DNA from: an uncultured Pelagibacteraceae bacterium
Lineage (GTDB): Bacteria; Pseudomonadota; Alphaproteobacteria; Pelagibacterales; Pelagibacteraceae
NCBI GenBank assembly: GCA_902535255.1
Contig: CACASQ010000006.1
Coordinates: 1-39,701 of the forward strand
DNA: 39,701 nt
Direction: 5' to 3'
This document shows, in pieces, positions 3,129 through 25,958 of this stretch. The position numbers and the translations under genes are program-made. The notes beneath the pieces were generated by a model. The model was not told where the DNA came from. It worked only from the letters and a program-made list of their open reading frames with translations, and searched no databases. The first letter of the stretch is position 1. Every line of letters begins with the position of its first letter.

Positions 3129-3854
3129 TATTTGACTTAAAAAAAGCTTAGTTCGATCTGATTTTGGATTTTCAAAAAACTCTTTAGTTTTTGCTCTTTC
3201 AACTATTTTTCCCTCGTCCATGAAAATCATATAGTCTGCAACTTCCTTAGCAAATCCCATTTCGTGAGTTACTACTATCATGGTCATTCCTCCTTTTGCT
3301 AAATCGACCATCACATCTAAAACCTCTTTTATCATTTCGGGATCTAATGCAGAAGTTGGTTCATCAAATAACATTATTTTTGGCTCCATACAAAGTGCTC
3401 TTGCTATCGCTGCTCTTTGTTGTTGACCTCCTGAAAGTTGACCGGGAAATTTTAAAGCTTGATCATCTATTTGAACTCTCGTTAAATTTTTCATGGCTAC
3501 TTCTTCAGCTTCTTTTTTAGGTAATTTTTTTACCCAAATAGGTGCCAAAGTACAGTTATCTAAAATTGAGAGATGAGGAAATAAATTAAATTGCTGAAAA
3601 ACCATCCCAACTTCAGCTCTTATTTTTTCAATATTTTTAGTGTTCTCGGCTAGTTCAGTGCCATCAACGACTATATTACCTTGTTGATGTTCCTCTAATC
3701 TATTTATGCATCGAATTAAAGTAGATTTTCCTGATCCTGATGGACCACATATAACTATTTTTTCCTGTGGGGCAACTTCAAGATCAATATCTTTTAGCAC
3801 CTGAAATTTATCAAACCATTTATTTACTTTTTTTAACTCTATTATTTTTCCCAT
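3123..3854 (-). CDS. aapP: General L-amino acid ABC transporter, ATP-binding protein
   Basis: The 243-residue ATPase of the Aap/Yhd importer, of the polar amino acid (GlnQ/HisP) class. It carries Walker [10 protein letters not shown], the Q-loop [11 protein letters not shown], signature [14 protein letters not shown], Walker B IMLFDEP and the switch histidine in VVTHEMGFA. It drives import through AapQ and AapM. It is the last gene of aapJQMP, 16 bases after aapM, and its end overlaps cysK on the other strand. The two genes leave no room for a separate terminator. Confidence 0.93.
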
Positions 3855-3870
3855 AATTATCTTTCGGTAC

Positions 3871-5109
3871 TTAATTTTTTTCTAAATTTTGACTATATCT
3901 ACTCATTGCATAACATATTACCCAGAAAACTAAACCTGCAAAAACATATCCCTCCATTGCCATACCCAGCCATTTTGGATTTGTTTTTGCTAAGCCTATC
4001 ATACCTGCTAATTCCATCAACCCTACAACGAAAATTAATGGTGTATCTTTTACTAAAGCTAGAAGAGTATTTGCTATTCCAGGTATCACTAGTTTAAGCG
4101 CCTGAGGTAATATTATTAGTGCGTTCATTCTCCAATAGCCCATACCTAAAGACTTTGCGGCTTCATATTGACCTTTTGGTAAAGCTTGTAATCCACCTCT
4201 AACAACCTCCGCCATGTAAGCAGCTTCAAATAATGTGATTGCTATCAAAACTCTAATTAATTTATCAATAAAAGTTCCGTCTGGCAAAAACATAGGAAAC
4301 ATTACAGCTGACATAAATAAAACTGTAATTAGAGGAACTCCCCTCCAAAGTTCGATAAAACCAATAGAAATATATCTTATTGCAGGTAATGAGGATCTTC
4401 TTCCAAGAGCTAAAATTACACCAATTGGAAAACAAAAAAGTATAGCAAAAGCAGAAATAATGAAAGTTAACGAAAGACCTCCCCAAGCCGCACTTTCAAC
4501 ATACTCAAGTCCAAAACTCCCACCTGAAATAAGTTTAATTCCTAAGAACGGGAAAACAAAAACTAAGAATAAGACAAAATATTTTTTAAGTTTTTCAGAT
4601 ACGAAAAATGAAACTCCTACAATAGCAAACAAGATTAAAAAAGCTGTATTTATTCTCCATTGCTCTGCGTCAGGATAAAGACCATACATGAATCTGTTGA
4701 ACCAAACTTTTATAAAAACCCAACAAGCACCATCACCTGTGCAATCATCTTTTGAGTTACCTAAAAAATTTGCCTCTAGAATAAACCAGTCCAACATTGG
4801 AGGAATTGACTTTATAATAATAAAAATTGTGAAAAGCGTTAATAAAGCATTAAAATTATTCGAATTTATATTTTTATTTAAAATATCTAAGAAACGAACA
4901 CCACTAAATTCAATTCTGATAAGGTAAAAACCAATAAAACCTAATATTAATGGTAAAAAATAGCTTAATTGCGATGGCAAAAATGCCATTAAATTAAAAT
5001 TAAAGAATGCATTAATAAATACATCTAAAATACTTAAAGAGACAAGAAACAAACCTATTGGAGCATAAGTTTTAAGATTCTCTTTAGAAGGTTTTGCAAT
5101 TAAATTCAT
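3871..5109 (-). CDS. aapM: General L-amino acid ABC transporter, permease AapM
   Basis: A 412-residue inner-membrane permease with about eight hydrophobic segments. The N-terminal half is a family-specific extension. The C-terminal half is the HisM-type permease domain, with the ATPase-contacting EAA loop in [20 protein letters not shown] followed by [11 protein letters not shown]. It pairs with AapQ to form the channel. Its ATG overlaps the aapQ stop (TAATG), which indicates translational coupling. The order binding protein, AapQ, AapM, AapP matches the Rhizobium aapJQMP and E. coli yhdWXYZ operons. A Cys-rich loop ([10 protein letters not shown]) lies near residues 120-130. Confidence 0.92.
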
Positions 5110-6284
5110 TATTTTTCCTTTATTGCCATTTTTTTATTGTACCAATTCATAAAGATTGAAATTGAGATACTTAAAGTTAGGTATGTAAGCATCGTTATAG
5201 AAATTATTTCAATTGCCCTACCCGTTTGCATTAAAGCAGTTCCCGCAAAAACTAATACTATATCCGGATAAGCAATAGCGGCCGCTAATGAAGAATTCTT
5301 TGTTAAATTTAAATACTGATTTGTAGTTGGTGGAATAATTATTCTCAATGCTTGGGGCATCACTACGAGTTTTAAAATTTGATTTTTATTTAATCCTATG
5401 CTTGCTGCGGCTTCTTTTTGACCTTTACTAACTCCCAAAATTCCAGCTCTTACATTTTCAGCAATAAATGTTGCTGTGTACATTGACAAAGCTAAAGCTA
5501 ATGCAATTAACTCTGGAATAATGCTAACACCACCCGCATAAGTGAAGACTGTTGGAGAAAGTTGTTTTAGAACAGGGTATTCAAATGTAAGGGTTACTCC
5601 AAGAAAAAGAAATGTAATTAAAGGTATTAATATTAATGATGCTAAAGAAATGGTAGTTACTGGTATTTGTTTTCCAAATTGTTCTCTTTGTTTAGTTGCA
5701 TAAGAATTTATAAAATAAATTGCTATAAACGCTGCTATTACCGATAAAAGAAAAACATTAAAATTTGTCCATATAAATTTTGGAACATACCAACCTTTAA
5801 TTGTTAAAAATGAAATATCATAAAAACTTATACCATTTTCAGGTAAAGGTAATGCTCTTAGCGCTGCAAAGTACCAGAAAAATATTTGTAGAATTAAAGG
5901 AATGTTTCTAAAAATTTCTACATACCACTCTGCAACTTTAGCAATTAAGTAGTTATCTGATAGTCTAGATATACCAACTATTACTCCCATAATTGTTGCA
6001 AAAAATATTCCTATAGCTGAAACTAAAATTGTATTTAACAAACCTACTAAAAACGCTCTCCCGTATGAATGTGAGCCATCATATTCAATCATTGAGAATG
6101 TAATATCAAATGATGCTTCTTGATTTAAAAAACCGAATCCAAAAGATATTCCTCGGTTGCCCATGTTAATTTGAGCATTAGTGGCAAAATAGATAATTAT
6201 AGAAAGTAAAGCTAAAACAGTAATTGCTTGAGGAATTAAGTCTCTTGCTTTTTTGTTTTCAATGTTGAATTTTTTAAAAATCAT
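5109..6284 (-). CDS. aapQ: General L-amino acid ABC transporter, permease AapQ
   Basis: The partner permease, 391 residues from the chosen start. The frame is open back to 6386, but that would overlap the aapJ end and translate through the hairpin at 6301-6328. The ATG at 6284 (MIFKKFNIENKKARDL) is therefore preferred. It has an N-terminal transmembrane segment (ITVLALLSIIIYF), a periplasmic loop, and a C-terminal permease core with the EAA loop ENVRAGILGVSKGQKEAAAS, then PQALRIIIPP. It acts in the inner membrane with AapM and AapP. Expression probably depends on read-through of the hairpin after aapJ. Confidence 0.9.
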   Translation of the reverse strand: MIFKKFNIENKKARDLIPQAITVLALLSIIIYFATNAQINMGNRGISFGFGFLNQEASFDITFSMIEYDGSHSYGRAFLVGLLNTILVSAIGIFFATIMGVIVGISRLSDNYLIAKVAEWYVEIFRNIPLILQIFFWYFAALRALPLPENGISFYDISFLTIKGWYVPKFIWTNFNVFLLSVIAAFIAIYFINSYATKQREQFGKQIPVTTISLASLILIPLITFLFLGVTLTFEYPVLKQLSPTVFTYAGGVSIIPELIALALALSMYTATFIAENVRAGILGVSKGQKEAAASIGLNKNQILKLVVMPQALRIIIPPTTNQYLNLTKNSSLAAAIAYPDIVLVFAGTALMQTGRAIEIISITMLTYLTLSISISIFMNWYNKKMAIKEK

Positions 6285-18437: not shown

Positions 18438-18794
18438 TTATACGTATTTAAATACTAGTACGAAATAAGCAACACAAATAATTGTTGCTATCCACAATAA
18501 ACTTCCAACTAAACCTAACCAAGCTAAGTGAATAAATGCACTCCCTAACAAAGATACAAAAAGCCTATCGCCCCTAGTTGTATCTAATCCTAAAATTCCT
18601 TTTCTTGGAGATCCGCCAGGTACTTTTTTTTCCCAAAAATACATGACAGATATACATAATGCTATAAAAATAAAAAAACTTGCTGTAGGCCACGTCCAAG
18701 CCATCCAAGTTATAAAGTCAAAATCAAAAAGACCTTTTTCTTTTGGTTGACCCACATTTGACCAACTAGATGCATTTAAATTTGTAAAAATCAT
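18438..18794 (-). CDS. glpU: GlpU-like small membrane protein (DUF2160)
   Basis: A 118-residue inner-membrane protein with three hydrophobic segments (around residues 27-50, 78-97 and 98-117) and the polar loop KKVPGGSPRKGILGLDTTRGDR. These features match DUF2160, the GlpU protein of the Rhizobium glycerol importer operon, whose exact function is unknown. It overlaps glpQ as ATGA and lies five bases before gap. It may be an accessory subunit or assembly factor of the importer. The name rests on operon position and resemblance. Confidence 0.8.
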   Translation of the reverse strand: MIFTNLNASSWSNVGQPKEKGLFDFDFITWMAWTWPTASFFIFIALCISVMYFWEKKVPGGSPRKGILGLDTTRGDRLFVSLLGSAFIHLAWLGLVGSLLWIATIICVAYFVLVFKYV

Positions 18795-19591
18795 ACTCTT
18801 CCCATTGCAAATCCTTTTGCGATGTAATTTCTTACAAAGTAAATTACCACCGCACCTGGGATGATTGTCAAACTACCTGCTGCTGCTAATAAACCTAATT
18901 CATATCCTGATGTACTCGAGGTTCTTGTCATTATTGCTGCGATAGGTTTAGCAATAGTTGCAGTAAGAGTCTTTGCTAATAGCAATTCAACCCAAGAAAA
19001 CATAAAACAGAAAAACATGGTAATACCTATTCCTGCTGCTATTGTTGGAATAAAGATCTTAAAGAAAAATCTTCCAAAAGAATATCCATCGACATAAGCT
19101 GTTTCATCTAATTCTTTTGGAACAGCTGACATAAATCCCTCTAATATCCAGACAGCTAAAGGTATATTAAAAAGGCAATGTGATAAAGCTATAGCAATGT
19201 GCGTATCAAATAAATTTACCGAAGAGTAAAATTGAAAAAATGGTAAAGCGAAAACAGCAGGCGGAGCCATTCTATTTGTTAACAACCAGAAAAATAAGTG
19301 TTTATCCCCTAAAAATTTATATCTAGAAAAAGCGTAAGCTGCCGGAAGTGCTGCGGATACAGAAATTATAGTATTAAAAACAGTATAAGTGATAGAGTTT
19401 ACGTAACCCATATACCAAGTGCTATCGGTAAAAATTGTTACATAATTTTCTAAAGTGAAATCTTTCGGCCATAAAGAGTAAACATTAATAATTTCAGTTG
19501 TTGTCTTAAAGGACATATTTAATAACCAATAAATCGGTAGCATTAAAAATATTATATAAATTGTAGGAACTAACCATTTAATTTTTTTCAT
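18791..19591 (-). CDS. glpQ: Glycerol ABC transporter, permease GlpQ
   Basis: A 266-residue permease of the carbohydrate-uptake-1 class (MalG/UgpE type) with six hydrophobic segments. The ATPase-contacting EAA loop reads ELDETAYVDGYSFGRFFFKI and continues into FIPTIAAGIG. It forms the membrane channel with GlpP. Start and stop overlap both neighbours as ATGA, so translation is coupled from glpP to glpU. This gene is unrelated to glpQ glycerophosphodiesterase, which shares the name. Confidence 0.88.
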   Translation of the reverse strand: MKKIKWLVPTIYIIFLMLPIYWLLNMSFKTTTEIINVYSLWPKDFTLENYVTIFTDSTWYMGYVNSITYTVFNTIISVSAALPAAYAFSRYKFLGDKHLFFWLLTNRMAPPAVFALPFFQFYSSVNLFDTHIAIALSHCLFNIPLAVWILEGFMSAVPKELDETAYVDGYSFGRFFFKIFIPTIAAGIGITMFFCFMFSWVELLLAKTLTATIAKPIAAIMTRTSSTSGYELGLLAAAGSLTIIPGAVVIYFVRNYIAKGFAMGRV

Positions 19592-20454
19592 GTCCGAGCC
19601 TCATTTTTCATCATTAAGCTGTAAAAAATCCAGCATATTAATAGAACAATTAGAAAATAAATAAGTGACATCGCTGCAGCAGGTCCAAGATCAAATTGTC
19701 CTAAGGCCATTTTTACTAAATCTAAAGAAAGAAAGTTTGTTGCATTACCAGGTCCCCCACCAGTCAAAACAAAAGGTTCAGTATAAATCATGAAACTATC
19801 CATAAATCTTAAAAGTATTGCTAAAGTTAAAACTTTTTTCATTTTGGGAAGCTCTATGTATCTAAATATATCCCATCTACTAGCGCCATCAATTTCAGCT
19901 GCTTGATAATAAGCCGGTTGTATTGAATTCAAGCCGGCGTAAGATAGAAGCACTACTAAGGAAGTCCAATGCCAAACATCCATTAATACTGTTGTAAACC
20001 AAGCATCCCCACTTTGTTGTGTAAAGTTATAATCAAATCCAATCGAATTTAATGAATTCCCTAAAAAACCAATATCTGGGAGTGCAAATATATTCCACAT
20101 TGCTCCAACTACATTCCAAGGAATTAGTAATGGCATTGACATCAATATTAAACAGACTGGAACACCCCAACCTTTTTTAGGCATAGTCAATGCAATAAAT
20201 ATACCTAGAGGAAGCTGAATTAACAAAATTATAAAAGTAAATATAGCTTGCCTTCCTAAAGATGCATGAAATCTTTCAGAATGCAGAATTTCCTTAAACC
20301 ATCTAGTTCCTTCCCAGGCAAAAACATTACTTCCAAATGTTTCTTGAAATGAATAATTTACAACTGTCATCAATGGAACCGCTGCATTGAACGCAACGAG
20401 GACAAAAACAGGAATTACAAAATACCAGGCTTTTTGATTAAATGTTTTATTCAT
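19588..20454 (-). CDS. glpP: Glycerol ABC transporter, permease GlpP
   Basis: A 288-residue permease of the MalF/UgpA type. Six hydrophobic segments are visible, starting with AWYFVIPVFVLVAFNAAVPL. The EAA loop is YYQAAEIDGASRWDIFRYI followed by ELPKMKKVL. It pairs with GlpQ in the inner membrane. Its ATG overlaps the glpT stop (TAATG), and its stop overlaps glpQ (ATGA). UgpA-like sugar permeases are similar, but the flanking glpU, glpV and glpK genes favour glycerol. Confidence 0.88.
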   Translation of the reverse strand: MNKTFNQKAWYFVIPVFVLVAFNAAVPLMTVVNYSFQETFGSNVFAWEGTRWFKEILHSERFHASLGRQAIFTFIILLIQLPLGIFIALTMPKKGWGVPVCLILMSMPLLIPWNVVGAMWNIFALPDIGFLGNSLNSIGFDYNFTQQSGDAWFTTVLMDVWHWTSLVVLLSYAGLNSIQPAYYQAAEIDGASRWDIFRYIELPKMKKVLTLAILLRFMDSFMIYTEPFVLTGGGPGNATNFLSLDLVKMALGQFDLGPAAAMSLIYFLIVLLICWIFYSLMMKNEART

Positions 20455-21518
20455 TATTCAATTATCCAGTTGTCTCCATATGCATATGTATATTTTTGAT
20501 CAAAAGAAATATGTGCGCTACCAGTTGGTATTTCAGTAGAGGCACTAGCCAAGACTTTAATATTGCCACTTTTGCATTCGGTGTCGACTACTTTATGTCT
20601 ACCTGTATCACTAACTCTTTTAATCTTTACTTGAATTCCGTCATTTGAAAAATTAATAAATTCTGGTCTTATACCTACCTGTGTCTTGCTAAAGTTCGTT
20701 TTTTTTATTCTAGTATTTGTAGGTAATACTTTTCCTTCAAAATTTATTTGACCATTCTTAATTTCACAAGGAAGAATGTTCATTCCTGGTGACCCTATAA
20801 AATGACCAACAAAAGTATGTTTTGGTTTTTCAAATAATTCCACAGGTGTTCCAGTTTGTACAATCTGTCCTTCATGCATCACAACAACTTGATCCGCGAA
20901 TGTTAATGCTTCTATTTGATCGTGGGTTACATAAATCATAGTACGATTGATTTTTTGATGTAATTCTTTTAATTTTGATCTTAAAACCCATTTTAAATGT
21001 GGGTCAATTACCGTCAAAGGTTCGTCAAACATAATTACATTTACATCTGATCTAACAAGTCCTCGTCCTAGAGAAATTTTTTGTTTCCCATCTGCTGTCA
21101 ATCCGGATGCTCTATTATTTAATGTAGAGCTTAGTTCTAACATTTCAGCAATTTCTTTAACCTTACTGTCGATTTCAATATCTGATAAACCTCTATTTTT
21201 TAAGGGAAATGCTAAATTATCATAAACAGTCATGGTGTCATAAATGACTGGAAATTGAAAAATTTGTGCAATATCTCTTTCAACTGGATTAAGCGTTGTT
21301 ACATCTTTATCATCAAATAATATTTCGCCTTCAGTTGGTTTTAATAAGCCAGATATAATATTTAATAAAGTTGTTTTTCCACAACCTGAAGGTCCTAATA
21401 ATGCATAAGCTCCTCCATCTTTCCAATCAATGTCAACTCCTCTTAGGGCCCAATCGGAATCATTATTTTGATTGGCTAAATAACTATGACTTAGTTTTTT
21501 TAAAGTAATCTTAGCCAT
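20454..21518 (-). CDS. glpT: Glycerol ABC transporter, ATP-binding protein GlpT
   Basis: One of two ATPases of the importer, 354 residues from the chosen start. The frame is open back to 21560, but the ATG at 21518 (MAKITLKKL) starts the domain and overlaps glpS by only 8 bases. Walker A GPSGCGKT (42-49), Walker B VIMFDEP with its catalytic Glu, and the switch histidine H199 (YVTHDQ) are intact. The signature is not LSGGQ but LTADGK (140-145), so this subunit cannot supply a normal signature to its partner. A TOBE-like domain follows (VGIRPEFINF). It is unrelated to the GlpT G3P antiporter. Confidence 0.88.
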   Translation of the reverse strand: MAKITLKKLSHSYLANQNNDSDWALRGVDIDWKDGGAYALLGPSGCGKTTLLNIISGLLKPTEGEILFDDKDVTTLNPVERDIAQIFQFPVIYDTMTVYDNLAFPLKNRGLSDIEIDSKVKEIAEMLELSSTLNNRASGLTADGKQKISLGRGLVRSDVNVIMFDEPLTVIDPHLKWVLRSKLKELHQKINRTMIYVTHDQIEALTFADQVVVMHEGQIVQTGTPVELFEKPKHTFVGHFIGSPGMNILPCEIKNGQINFEGKVLPTNTRIKKTNFSKTQVGIRPEFINFSNDGIQVKIKRVSDTGRHKVVDTECKSGNIKVLASASTEIPTGSAHISFDQKYTYAYGDNWIIE

Positions 21519-22575
21519 GATTAACCAATCTGTTGTTTTGATCAAAATATAAAAATTCATCTACATTCATATGTAATTTTGTATCCTCACCAATATTTCT
21601 TTGTTGGATGCCATTCGATAAAGAAACCCAATTTAATTTTCCATTAGTAAAATGGATTAAGCTTTCTGATCCAGAAAGTTCAGAAATTAAAACTTTCCCA
21701 TTAATTTCAACTGAATTACTACCTTCTTTATAAGTTGTTATATTGTGAGGTCTGATACCAATTTTATAATTTCCGTCTTTTATATTTACATTTGATTTCC
21801 ACTGGACATTATTATCAACTAATTTAAAATTATCTCCAGACTTTGTAATTTCAGCAATATTCATTGGAGGGTCACTAAATACTTTGGCAGAAGTTAAATT
21901 GTCAGGTTTATTATAAACATCTAAAGTTTTTCCATACTGAACGACATTCCCTTCTAATAATGTTGCAGTATTACCTCCTATCATAAGCGCATCAAGAGGT
22001 TCAGTTGTTGCATAAACAACAATGCAATCTCTGTCTTCAAATAGCTTTGGTAATTCTTCTCTAAGTTCTTCACGTAACTTAAAATCCAAATTAGCTAAAG
22101 GTTCATCTAATAATATCAGATCAGAATCTTTGACTAAGGCTCTAGCTAAGGCGGTTCTTTGTTGTTGGCCACCAGATAATTCATCCGGTTTTTTATTAAG
22201 CATTGCAGATAATTTTAAAAGCTCTGCAACTTTACCTACTCTTTGTTTAATTTCATCGGAATTAATTCCTGTAATTTTTAAAGGTGATGCAATATTATCA
22301 AAAACAGTAAAATTAGGATAATTAATAAATTGCTGGTAAACCATTGAACAATTTCTTTTTTGAACTTCTTTACCTGTCACATTTTCTCCGTTAAACCAAA
22401 TTTCTCCTGAAGTTGGTTTGTCTAAACCGGCCATAATTTGCATTAATGTTGTTTTACCAGCTAAAGTAGATCCTAATAAAACATTAATAGTATTTTTTTC
22501 TAATTTTAAATTTGTAGAATATATATGAGTTTCTATTCCAACTTTTTTTTCAACTTCTTTTAATTCTAAACTCAT
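21511..22575 (-). CDS. glpS: Glycerol ABC transporter, ATP-binding protein GlpS
   Basis: The second ATPase, 354 residues. Walker A is GSTLAGKT (35-42), the signature LSGGQQQR (133-140) is canonical, and Walker B LILLDEP keeps its Glu. The switch-loop histidine is replaced: YVTHDQ of the family reads YATTEP here, with T191 at the His position. The C-terminal TOBE-like domain contains IGIRPHNIT. It follows the hairpin after glpV and overlaps glpT by 8 bases. Its defect complements that of GlpT, so the pair should have one normal and one inactive ATP site. Confidence 0.88.
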   Translation of the reverse strand: MSLELKEVEKKVGIETHIYSTNLKLEKNTINVLLGSTLAGKTTLMQIMAGLDKPTSGEIWFNGENVTGKEVQKRNCSMVYQQFINYPNFTVFDNIASPLKITGINSDEIKQRVGKVAELLKLSAMLNKKPDELSGGQQQRTALARALVKDSDLILLDEPLANLDFKLREELREELPKLFEDRDCIVVYATTEPLDALMIGGNTATLLEGNVVQYGKTLDVYNKPDNLTSAKVFSDPPMNIAEITKSGDNFKLVDNNVQWKSNVNIKDGNYKIGIRPHNITTYKEGSNSVEINGKVLISELSGSESLIHFTNGKLNWVSLSNGIQQRNIGEDTKLHMNVDEFLYFDQNNRLVNHG

Positions 22576-22641: not shown

Positions 22642-24372
22642 TTATTTCCAAGCGTCTTTAAATGCTACGGTTTTACCTTTAGGTTTCTCATTAACTTTAG
22701 CCTTTGGCGAACCTTTTTGATTTAACCAATAAGAAGCTTCTCTTGGTTTGTTAAGTCTAGGTCCACATCCACCGTAAGCGTTACTACCTTTATCAGCAGC
22801 TTCCATACGAGACATAACTAAGTCCATCTCATCTGCAAGACGATCCATAGTTTGTTGTGGAGTAAATGTGCCAGAGTTTACCTCTCCGATATGCTGCCAC
22901 CATAATTGTGCTAGCTTCGGATAATCTGGAACGTTGACACCTGTTGGTGACCAAACATTTCTGTTTTTTGATCTGTAGAACTCTACAAGTCCACCAAGCT
23001 CCGGTGCTCTCTTTGTAAAGTGTTTGTGATTAATTGTACTTTTTCTCACAAATGTAATACCAACATCAGCTTTTTTAAGAGATACTGTTTTTGAAACAGC
23101 AAATTGAGCGTACAACCATGCAGCTTTTCTTCTCTCAACGTCAGTAGACTTAAATAAAGTCCATGATCCAACGTCTTGATAACCAAGCTTCATGCCTTGT
23201 TCCCAATATGGTCCTTTTGGCGAAGGTCCCATTCTCCATAGTGGCATACCGTTTGCATCAACAACTTTATTATTAGGATCTTTTCCTACTAAAGATGCTG
23301 TGAAAGCCGTGTACCAGAAAATTTGCTGAGCAACGTTTCCTGAAGATAGTGACGGTAGAGACTGATAGAAGTCCATTGCCGCAGCTCCTGGAGGCGCATA
23401 TTGTCTTAACCACTCATCCCATTTTCTAATAGCGTATACAGCAGCGGGGCCGTTTGTAGCTCCACCTCTTGATACGTTAGCACCTACTGGGTTACAAGAA
23501 CCAGGCTCCATTCGAATTCCCCACTCATCTACTGGAACTCCGTTTGGTAATCCTTTACTTCCTGCGCCAGCCATTGATAACCACGCATCAGTCATTCTCC
23601 ATCCTAAATCTGGAGCTCTTTTACCGTAGTCCATGTGACCGTATATTCTTACACCATCAATTTCTTTAACATCTTCTGAAAAGAATTTAGCTATATCTTC
23701 ATATGCAGACCAGTTTACTGGTACTCCTAAATCATAACCATATTTTTTCTTAAATGCTTTTTGAATTTCAGGTCTATCAAACCAGTCTTTTCTAAACCAA
23801 TAAAGGTTAGCAAATTGTTGGTCTGGTAGTTGATAAAGATTTCCATCAGGACCCGTAGTAAATTGAAGTCCTATGAAGTCATCTAAATCCAACATTGGAT
23901 TAGTGACAGCTTTACCTTCACCTTTCATCCAGTCAGTTAAATTTACAGCTTGTTGCATACGCGCGTGCGTACCAATTAAGTCTGAGTCATTTACATACGC
24001 ATCGTAAATACTTACGTTCGTTTGCATTTGAGTTTGTACAGCCATTACCACATCACCTTCACCAATAATTTGGTGTTGGACTTTGATACCTGTTATCTCT
24101 TCAAACGCTTTTGTAAGAACCTTAGATTCATACACGTGAGTAGGTATTCCTTCAGATACTACTTTTAAAGACATTCCTTTGAATGGCTTAGCAGCATCGT
24201 GGAACCATTGTAGTTCTTTTTCTCTATCTTTTGCAGATAGAACTGAAAGACTAAATTCCCCATTTGACCATTTCTTAATTGCAGCCATATGACCGTCTGC
24301 AAATGCGCTAGAAATAGTTACGATTGAAAATGAAACAGCAACAGCAAAAATAGTTTTTAATGTTTTAATCAT
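22642..24372 (-). CDS. glpV: Glycerol ABC transporter, substrate-binding protein
   Basis: A large periplasmic solute-binding protein of family 1, 576 residues against about 430 for UgpB or MalE. The signal peptide MIKTLKTIFAVAVSFSIVTI... is cleaved near SSAFA. The long insert is rich in Trp, Gly and Pro (PGAAAMDFYQSLPSLSSGN) as in GlpV. I chose the ATG at 24372, preceded by an AGGGAA ribosome binding site, over one 12 bases upstream. The 104-base gap after glpK probably holds its promoter, though I see no clear boxes. Sugar-binding relatives exist; the operon argues for glycerol. Confidence 0.88.
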   Translation of the reverse strand: MIKTLKTIFAVAVSFSIVTISSAFADGHMAAIKKWSNGEFSLSVLSAKDREKELQWFHDAAKPFKGMSLKVVSEGIPTHVYESKVLTKAFEEITGIKVQHQIIGEGDVVMAVQTQMQTNVSIYDAYVNDSDLIGTHARMQQAVNLTDWMKGEGKAVTNPMLDLDDFIGLQFTTGPDGNLYQLPDQQFANLYWFRKDWFDRPEIQKAFKKKYGYDLGVPVNWSAYEDIAKFFSEDVKEIDGVRIYGHMDYGKRAPDLGWRMTDAWLSMAGAGSKGLPNGVPVDEWGIRMEPGSCNPVGANVSRGGATNGPAAVYAIRKWDEWLRQYAPPGAAAMDFYQSLPSLSSGNVAQQIFWYTAFTASLVGKDPNNKVVDANGMPLWRMGPSPKGPYWEQGMKLGYQDVGSWTLFKSTDVERRKAAWLYAQFAVSKTVSLKKADVGITFVRKSTINHKHFTKRAPELGGLVEFYRSKNRNVWSPTGVNVPDYPKLAQLWWQHIGEVNSGTFTPQQTMDRLADEMDLVMSRMEAADKGSNAYGGCGPRLNKPREASYWLNQKGSPKAKVNEKPKGKTVAFKDAWK

Positions 24373-24476
24373 TATTTCCCTCATTTGTTTGTTATTGTTT
24401 TTTTTAATAAATTATTGAAGCAAATATAGATAAAAAAGTACAGTGTTTATAATGGAATATTCAACCAAGAGATGTA

Positions 24477-25958
24477 TTAATGTATTAAAGTTCTTTTTAT
24501 GGCTTTAATCCATCCCTCTAGAAGCGCTGATCTTAATTTTCTGCTCATCTTAGGAGAAAACTTTTTGTCTACATCCCAATTTCTGGAAATATCTTTTAAT
24601 GATTTATAAACACCTATGTGTAATCCTGCCATAAAAGCTGCTCCAAGAGCTGTAGTTTCTTGTACTTTTGGTCTTAATACTTTTACGTTAACAACATCAG
24701 ATAAAAATTGAGAGAACCAATTATTCATAACCATTCCTCCATCTACTTTAACTATTTTAGGTCTTAAACCATCATGTTTCATAGCCTCAAATAAATCATG
24801 AGTTTGGTAAGCAACAGCCTCAATTGTTGCTCTTACTATTTCTTTTGGACTTGTATCTCGTGTAATTCCACTCAAAACTCCTCTAGAATTTGCATCCCAA
24901 TAAGGAGCTCCAAGACCAGTAAATGCTGGTACTAAATAAATATCATTATTGCTTTTAAGAGATTTTACTATCTTTTCAGTTTGAGATGCTTTGTTAAAAA
25001 ATTTCATTCTATCCCTTAACCACTGCACTCCTGCCCCAGCAATAAAAATTGATCCTTCCATTGCATAAGTTGTCTTACCATTAATTCTATAGGCGATAGT
25101 TGTTAGCAATCTATTTTTTGAGTAAATTTTTTTACTCCCTGTGTTTAATAGAACAAAAGCGCCAGTTCCATAAGTGCTTTTCAATGATCCAGGTTCAAAA
25201 CAGCATTGACCAATTGTTGCAGATTGTTGATCTCCAACTACACCATTAATTGGAATTGATTTACCGGTAATTGATGAATGAGTTTGACCAAAATCATCTG
25301 CACAGTCTTTTACTTCTGGTAGGATATTTTTTTTAATCTTAAGTAGTTTTAAAATAGTATCGTCCCATTGATTAGATGTAATATTATAAATCATAGTTCT
25401 ACTAGCGTTAGTAGCATCGGTTGCATGAACTTTGCCTTTAGTGAATCTCCATATTAAAAAACTATCAATAGTTCCAAAAAGTAATTGATTACTACTCATT
25501 AGTTTTTTTGCTTTAGGCACATTATCCAAAATCCATTTAATTTTCGTGCCTGAAAAATATGAGTCTATTAAAAGACCAGTCTTGTTAAAGATCATCGTAT
25601 CTTTATTTTGTTTTCTCAATTTAGCACAAAATTCTTCTTGTCTTCGATCTTGCCATACAATTGCATTGTAAACTGGTTTGCCTGTTCTCTTGTCCCATAA
25701 AACAGTTGTTTCTCTTTGATTGGTGATTCCGATATTTAAAATTTCTCCCCTAAGTTTTTTAGCTTTTTGAATTACATCTTTTAAAGTTTTTACAGTTGTT
25801 CTCCAAATTTCTTCAGGATTATGTTCTACCCAACCGCTTTTGGGAAAGTATTGTGTGAATTCTTTTTGAGAGGAGAAAACTGGCTTACCTTTTAAATCAA
25901 AAAGAATGGATCTATTCGAAGTAGTTCCAGCATCTATAGAGATGATAAATTTTCTCAT
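24477..25958 (-). CDS. glpK: Glycerol kinase
   Basis: A 493-residue FGGY-family kinase that converts glycerol to glycerol 3-phosphate and traps it in the cell. It has the phosphate-binding DAGTTSNRSILFD (most relatives have Gln in place of Ala), GITNQRETTVLWD, IVWQDRR, GDQQSATIGQ, the ATP-site GTGAFVLLNTG and VDGGMVMNNWFSQF. Length matches the family. It starts one base after the SHOCT gene and lies 104 bases before glpV. The operon runs gpsA, SHOCT, glpK. Confidence 0.95.
   Translation of the reverse strand: MRKFIISIDAGTTSNRSILFDLKGKPVFSSQKEFTQYFPKSGWVEHNPEEIWRTTVKTLKDVIQKAKKLRGEILNIGITNQRETTVLWDKRTGKPVYNAIVWQDRRQEEFCAKLRKQNKDTMIFNKTGLLIDSYFSGTKIKWILDNVPKAKKLMSSNQLLFGTIDSFLIWRFTKGKVHATDATNASRTMIYNITSNQWDDTILKLLKIKKNILPEVKDCADDFGQTHSSITGKSIPINGVVGDQQSATIGQCCFEPGSLKSTYGTGAFVLLNTGSKKIYSKNRLLTTIAYRINGKTTYAMEGSIFIAGAGVQWLRDRMKFFNKASQTEKIVKSLKSNNDIYLVPAFTGLGAPYWDANSRGVLSGITRDTSPKEIVRATIEAVAYQTHDLFEAMKHDGLRPKIVKVDGGMVMNNWFSQFLSDVVNVKVLRPKVQETTALGAAFMAGLHIGVYKSLKDISRNWDVDKKFSPKMSRKLRSALLEGWIKAIKRTLIH

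Follow-up and report, generated by a model that had tools for sequence, protein, structure and literature searches.

A Conserved One-Sided Asymmetry in the ATPase Pair of a Predicted Pelagibacteraceae Glycerol Importer

Introduction

How much ATP an importer of the ATP-binding cassette (ABC) class spends on each molecule that it brings in, and whether both of its ATP sites need to fire, are long-standing questions. In importers of the MalK type the two ATPases are identical, and changing one site but not the other takes engineering. Here we describe GlpS and GlpT, the two different ATPases of a predicted glycerol importer encoded in a 39,701-nucleotide stretch of the genome of an uncultured Pelagibacteraceae bacterium (contig CACASQ010000006.1 of assembly GCA_902535255.1; this whole stretch is referred to as the window). 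The two are altered in complementary motifs, and all of their conserved changes fall in one of two composite ATP sites.

The closest described transporters are glpVSTPQ of Ruegeria pomeroyi DSS-3, to which glycerol was assigned by means of a mutant (PMC10130141), and glpSTPQUV of Rhizobium leguminosarum VF39, described as a glycerol transporter (PMC7912956); both papers, like the others cited here, are drawn on for the passages available. The window carries the same gene set. Among ATPases the closest in sequence are MalK and UgpC, homodimeric members of the CUT1 family with the same fold. The layout that we report is better known from heterodimeric exporters and channels (TM287/288, BmrCD, TAP, MRP1 and CFTR), in which a signature change in one nucleotide-binding domain (NBD) likewise combines with core changes in the other NBD within one composite site, and asymmetric D-loops are found in the heterodimeric exporters and in GlpST alike (PMC7756269, PMC5216877); GlpST, in contrast, is an importer. 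No description of the GlpS/GlpT asymmetry was found in the open-access literature by title and start of abstract, nor in the available passages of the glp papers.

Results and Discussion

GlpS and GlpT are altered in complementary motifs

The motifs of GlpS and GlpT fall in common alignment columns and match the LSGGQ and THD motifs of sugar-importer ATPases with solved structures. There are several prominent features (Table 1). First, GlpS has a canonical LSGGQ signature and a threonine, Thr191, in place of the switch histidine, whereas GlpT has LTADGK at residues 140–145 in place of LSGGQ and retains intact Walker A and Walker B motifs and the switch histidine; the first-pass annotation had noted exactly these features, and the alignment confirms them with identical numbering. 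Second, neither chain has LSGGQ and the switch histidine together, GlpS being without the histidine and GlpT without the GG. Third, GlpS departs from the usual core in two further places, the A-loop and the fourth residue of the P-loop, and the D-loop of GlpT is altered as well. Finally, in AlphaFold single-chain models of the two proteins (mean predicted local distance difference test scores of 91.0 and 88.7), LSGGQ of GlpS and LTADGK of GlpT both open the same signature helix, and Thr191 and His199 both directly follow the same switch strand.

Every conserved change maps to a single composite site, that made up of the GlpS core and the GlpT signature, and the GlpT core (Tyr13, GPSGCGKT, Glu166 and His199) together with LSGGQ of GlpS is the only canonical composite site. 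The earlier proposal of one complete site and another without both elements is borne out, and the further changes lie in the same site.

Both proteins match the ABC ATPase domain PF00005, and sugar-importer ATPases with solved structures rank top in sequence and fold searches with them. GlcV and UgpC are among their best NCBIfam matches, all of which lie under the curated cut-offs, and no NCBIfam model is passed by GlpS or GlpT; LivF and LivG are absent from the 25 best NCBIfam matches of either. The models of both proteins match MalK-type chains over their full length, and the C-terminal OB-type domain PF17912 is just over its cut-off in GlpT, with none given by Pfam in GlpS.

In their altered motifs GlpS and GlpT differ from MalK and UgpC. 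E. coli UgpC is canonical (LSGGQ and THD), as are the UgpC-like control ATPases, which have GG, the switch histidine and an aromatic A-loop in 28 of 28 cases. A second group of controls, 20 'tandem' ATPases from 13 other CUT1 loci (true pairs in seven of them), has the histidine and an aromatic A-loop in all 20 and GG in 18. Nor need a pair of different ATPases be lopsided, since the E. coli heterodimeric importer DppD/DppF retains GG and the histidine in both chains; ATP hydrolysis by both chains is proposed by the authors of that work (PMC12136057).

The asymmetry is conserved across glp operons

Loci were collected with the DUF2160 domain as an anchor, which is matched in 85 of 398 genomes of the phylum and, within the order, in 35 of 247; each of these surveys includes the window's genome. 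The 202 loci comprise 118 fetched DUF2160 loci, the window, three plasmid-collection records and 80 named loci found through GlpV (the best 80 of 593 matches); beyond Pseudomonadota they cover one actinomycete (L179; L numbers are our locus handles) and one metagenome-assembled genome labelled SAR324 (L201). Both glpS and glpT are held by 195 of these loci, which yield 189 distinct pairs; although no two of these pairs are identical in sequence, many come from close relatives, and they do not amount to 189 independent cases. The seven loci without a pair are all at contig edges: five have neither gene (L156, L170, L197, L220 and L233), L192 has a cut GlpS, and L248 has GlpS and a cut GlpT. In one locus, L245, GlpT is broken into two frames.

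All four features of the asymmetry (LSGGQ and no switch histidine in GlpS, no GG and a switch histidine in GlpT) are present in 187 of the 189 distinct pairs, and in the two that miss (L189 and L231) glpT runs off the contig before the histidine is reached. Whether the two losses always occur together in glp operons was a question raised by the first-pass annotation, and they do so in all 187 fully readable pairs. None of the 189 shows one loss without the other, and there is no operon among them in which GlpT has LSGGQ and GlpS the histidine.

The same pattern is seen protein by protein. LSGGQ is present in 197 of 197 GlpS copies and the switch histidine in none, its place being taken by threonine (154 copies), serine (42) or alanine (1). 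GlpT has no GG in any of 195 copies and has the histidine in all 193 that are long enough to read. The A-loop aromatic is missing from 195 of 197 GlpS copies (present in 2/197), and the corresponding tyrosine of GlpT is present in 195/195; the fourth P-loop residue of GlpS is glycine in 29 copies and has been lost in 168, and the GlpT D-loop reads TV[IV]D throughout (195/195). The Walker A lysine, the Q-loop glutamine and the Walker B Asp-Glu are retained in every GlpS (197/197). Identical motifs occur in R. leguminosarum UPM791 (L180) and two Ruegeria (L256 and L260), and the actinomycete Nonomuraea gerenzanensis (L179) has other letters (YSTADP in GlpS, LDAGR in GlpT) in an unchanged layout. 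GlpS and GlpT each form a single clade, with support of 100/100, when 108 ATPases are placed in a tree; the GlpT clade includes one cut GlpT.

Two other explanations were considered and rejected. The pattern is not a chance product or an error of a single genome, as 187 of the 189 distinct pairs have all four features, and decay of glpS or glpT into pseudogenes is contradicted by their open frames and the conservation of the new motifs.

As the altered motifs are themselves conserved, they are probably constrained, and it is plausible, but no more than that, that the two losses were co-selected rather than random, as the first-pass annotation had suggested. A different history is offered by a neutral ratchet, in which drift first removed one element from one site of a heterodimer, the rest of that site was then free to change, and the pair became locked with an asymmetry that was never selected; mechanistically, this would still imply one working site. 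Such a ratchet would fit the confinement of all changes to one composite site, as expected once a first loss frees the rest, the different letters of Nonomuraea at the same places, and the variability of the fourth P-loop residue in GlpS and of some signature positions in GlpT, including the fifth. However, L-x-[AP]-D-x-K-Q and TVIDP in GlpT and YAT[TS]EP in GlpS are near-fixed over the 189 pairs, which suggests constraint on the new motifs, and like layouts in LivF/LivG and in a Rhizobiales pair (see below) suggest recurrence. We regard the ratchet as unlikely, though deserving of some weight.

A possible single-site mechanism

We consider it fairly probable, on the basis of the motifs, that GlpS pairs with GlpT in a heterodimer of which one site hydrolyses ATP and the other is non-canonical. 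We infer the heterodimer from these motifs and the constant adjacency of the two genes; nucleotide occupancy and a single hydrolysis per cycle are likewise inferred. In this model GlpS and GlpT would pair 1:1 under the GlpP and GlpQ permeases. The only site competent for hydrolysis would be that of the GlpT core (Tyr13, Lys48, Glu166 and His199) with LSGGQ of GlpS. The other site, in which the GlpS core faces LTADxK of GlpT, probably remains able to bind nucleotide, given the intact Walker A lysine and Walker B Asp-Glu of GlpS, and would hydrolyse it slowly or never. Its role may be to stabilise the dimer and to pass on a signal by way of the altered D-loop of GlpT; a nucleotide bound in the degenerate site of heterodimeric exporters is reported to stabilise the contact between NBDs through asymmetric D-loops (PMC5216877). 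One hydrolysis would drive each import cycle, with one ATP spent per glycerol, and Glu166 of GlpT and LSGGQ of GlpS are predicted to be essential and Glu158 of GlpS dispensable.

Three observations weigh against this model. First, the catalytic glutamate and the Walker A lysine are present in 197 of 197 GlpS copies, unlike many degenerate-site exporters, in which absence of the catalytic glutamate from the degenerate site is frequent though not universal, and some hydrolysis at the GlpS-core site is thus possible. Second, each of the single changes is tolerated in some ABC proteins (PMC7756269), so that the number of working sites is not readable from sequence. Third, the divergences of GlpS and GlpT correlate at 0.93 over the 189 pairs, but this is equally expected from mere co-inheritance.

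The retention of the nucleotide-binding residues in all GlpS copies while the A-loop aromatic has been lost could also suit a regulatory site, a nucleotide sensor that sets activity by the level of ATP or by another ligand, and MalK-like C-terminal regions are seen in the models of GlpS and GlpT alike. The sequence itself does not call for a sensor role, though, and we think it improbable. It is more doubtful still that GlpS and GlpT form no heterodimer and act instead as homodimers or with another CUT1 ATPase. The genome does encode a UgpC-like ATPase that could serve as such a partner (L289), and sharing of CUT1-type ATPases between importers has been reported (PMC7658222); yet a homodimer of either protein would leave both of its sites incomplete, and glpS and glpT lie side by side in each of the 195 loci where both are present, with the seven pairless loci ending at contig edges. 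We consider this last alternative very improbable.

Other importers share the layout

The first-pass annotation's overall reading stands as regards the complementary one-site layout but not as regards its statement that this is unusual for an importer, which we reject because the layout recurs in LivF/LivG (those of the window's own genome, of E. coli and of a sample of the phylum) and in a second, unrelated CUT1-type pair in Rhizobiales, and because RbsA and NupO are described, in the passages available, as importers with one degenerate site. The asymmetry of GlpST is real, general and probably constrained, but it is not exceptional among importers; GlpST is a strong case, from the CUT1 family, of a layout found in other importers too.

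Both LivF/LivG pairs of the window's genome (L265 and L269) are lopsided, LivF having LSGGE and VEQN and LivG having LPYGD or LSFGQ with IEHD or IEHN. (The ATPases of this genome were screened with a loose regular expression that missed GlpS and called the histidine absent in some cases where it is present, and the LivF/LivG rows were then read as sequences; for these proteins the LivF and LivG NCBIfam models are the best matches, under cut-off.) E. coli K-12 is alike, with MSGGE and VEQN in LivF and LAYGD and IEHD in LivG. In a set of 30 loci for each protein from among the matches listed, together with E. coli and the window genome's own loci (38 and 40 rows, respectively 37 and 38 distinct), LivF retains GG and has glutamine for the switch histidine in 37 of 37, and LivG has lost the first signature glycine and retained the histidine in 38 of 38. 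These importers of the HAAT class thus have the same complementary layout as GlpST but in another ATPase family and in a milder form, since LivG keeps the second glycine and LivF has an ordinary P-loop.

The Rhizobiales pair (L317, positions 3465–5624) was found through one of the two controls that lack GG. Its first ATPase has LSVNI and an intact core; its second has LSGGE, a GPP[LT]SGKS P-loop and Asp-Asp for Asp-Glu, and both retain the histidine. The layout is the same in six of six distinct loci (L317 and L328–L332; L327 is the same place as L317), and the pair adjoins Gfo/Idh/MocA and sugar isomerase genes. At strict cut-offs the pair is rare, with matches in 2 of the 150 genomes surveyed in its order and in four plasmid records, and its ATPases fall in neither the GlpS nor the GlpT clade of the tree of 108. 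In the Bacillus subtilis importers RbsA and NupO one ATP site is described as degenerate (PMC11466899); there the two NBDs are fused in one chain, whereas those of GlpST are separate chains, and the second NBD is without the Walker A lysine that GlpS keeps.

A broader proposal is that several importer families (GlpST, LivFG, the Rhizobiales pair and fused RbsA) independently reached ATPase pairs with one site altered, that single-site importers are widespread, and that GlpSTPQV operates at one ATP per glycerol, an economy that would pay off where sea water is poor in nutrients and the imported three-carbon compound is cheap; we put this forward tentatively, as somewhat short of probable. In GlpST, a naturally occurring CUT1 pair, one of the sites is non-canonical to begin with, and the transporter has a growth phenotype in a non-pathogenic marine bacterium, which makes it well suited to testing whether import can run on a single working ATP site. 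The milder version in LivFG would allow the roles of the two sites to be compared across importer families.

Organization of the glp locus

The S, T, P, Q, DUF2160 and V genes are contiguous in the window and constitute a glpSTPQUV gene set (Table 1), and homology together with the neighbouring glpK suggests that the transporter is a glycerol importer. The genes are closely packed, with overlaps of 8 nt between glpS and glpT, 1 nt between glpT and glpP, and 4 nt each between glpP and glpQ and between glpQ and glpU. Mechanical calling of open reading frames opens the glpT frame at 21560, 14 codons early (window 21511–21560), but we place the start at the ATG at 21518 (MAKITL) because its overlap with the glpS stop as ATGGCTAA fits better; this start gives residue numbers for GlpT identical to those of the first-pass annotation.

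Table 1. Coordinates of the glp genes, the GlpS and GlpT motifs, and the LivF/LivG pairs of the same genome (window positions unless a contig is named).
Feature	Position	Strand	Basis or remark
glpK, glycerol kinase	24477..25958	(-)	NCBIfam match
glpV, solute-binding protein	22642..24384	(-)	
glpS, CUT1-type ABC ATPase, 354 aa	21511..22575	(-)	
GlpS Val12 at A-loop position, no aromatic	22540..22542	(-)	alignment; column beside a gap, less certain than the other features
GlpS Walker A GSTLAGKT (35-42), fourth residue Leu not Gly, Lys41 retained	22450..22473	(-)	alignment
GlpS signature LSGGQ (133-137; LSGGQQQR 133-140), canonical, serves GlpT core	22165..22179	(-)	alignment
GlpS Walker B LILLDEP (153-159), Glu158 retained	22099..22119	(-)	alignment
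GlpS Thr191 (YATTEP 188-193) replacing switch His	22003..22005	(-)	alignment and model
glpT, CUT1-type ABC ATPase, 354 aa	20454..21518	(-)	start codon 21518
GlpT Tyr13, A-loop aromatic	21480..21482	(-)	alignment
GlpT Walker A GPSGCGKT (42-49)	21372..21395	(-)	alignment
GlpT LTADGK (140-145; LTADGKQK 140-147) replacing LSGGQ, faces GlpS core	21084..21101	(-)	alignment and model
GlpT Walker B VIMFDEP (161-167), predicted catalytic Glu166	21018..21038	(-)	alignment
GlpT D-loop LTVIDPHLK	20991..21017	(-)	alignment
GlpT switch His199 (YVTHDQ 196-201)	20922..20924	(-)	alignment and model
glpP, permease	19588..20454	(-)	
glpQ, permease	18791..19591	(-)	
glpU, DUF2160 small membrane protein	18438..18794	(-)	Pfam match
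LivF/LivG pairs of the window's genome	G000:C1 about 143.6-145.2 kb and 156.5-157.8 kb		L265, L269

In the order of its genes the window, with V first, differs from R. leguminosarum UPM791, in which V is last. The whole S-T-P-Q-U-V set is also present in N. gerenzanensis, where GlpV is 58% identical to that of the window. The small membrane protein gene glpU adjoins glpQ in the mapped intact operons, and weak DUF2160 matches are found elsewhere near UgpC-type operons (for example at G043:C335:142353, beside a UgpC-like ATPase). Within the order the DUF2160 match is patchy, occurring in 35 of 247 genomes and in three of ten genera; this spread among close relatives makes gain, loss or transfer within the order likely, although some of the genomes surveyed are incomplete. 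Among the best 80 of 593 GlpV matches, the nearest named locus is that of the Pelagibacterales (SAR11) SAG-MED41, whose glpV is 99% identical to that of the window.

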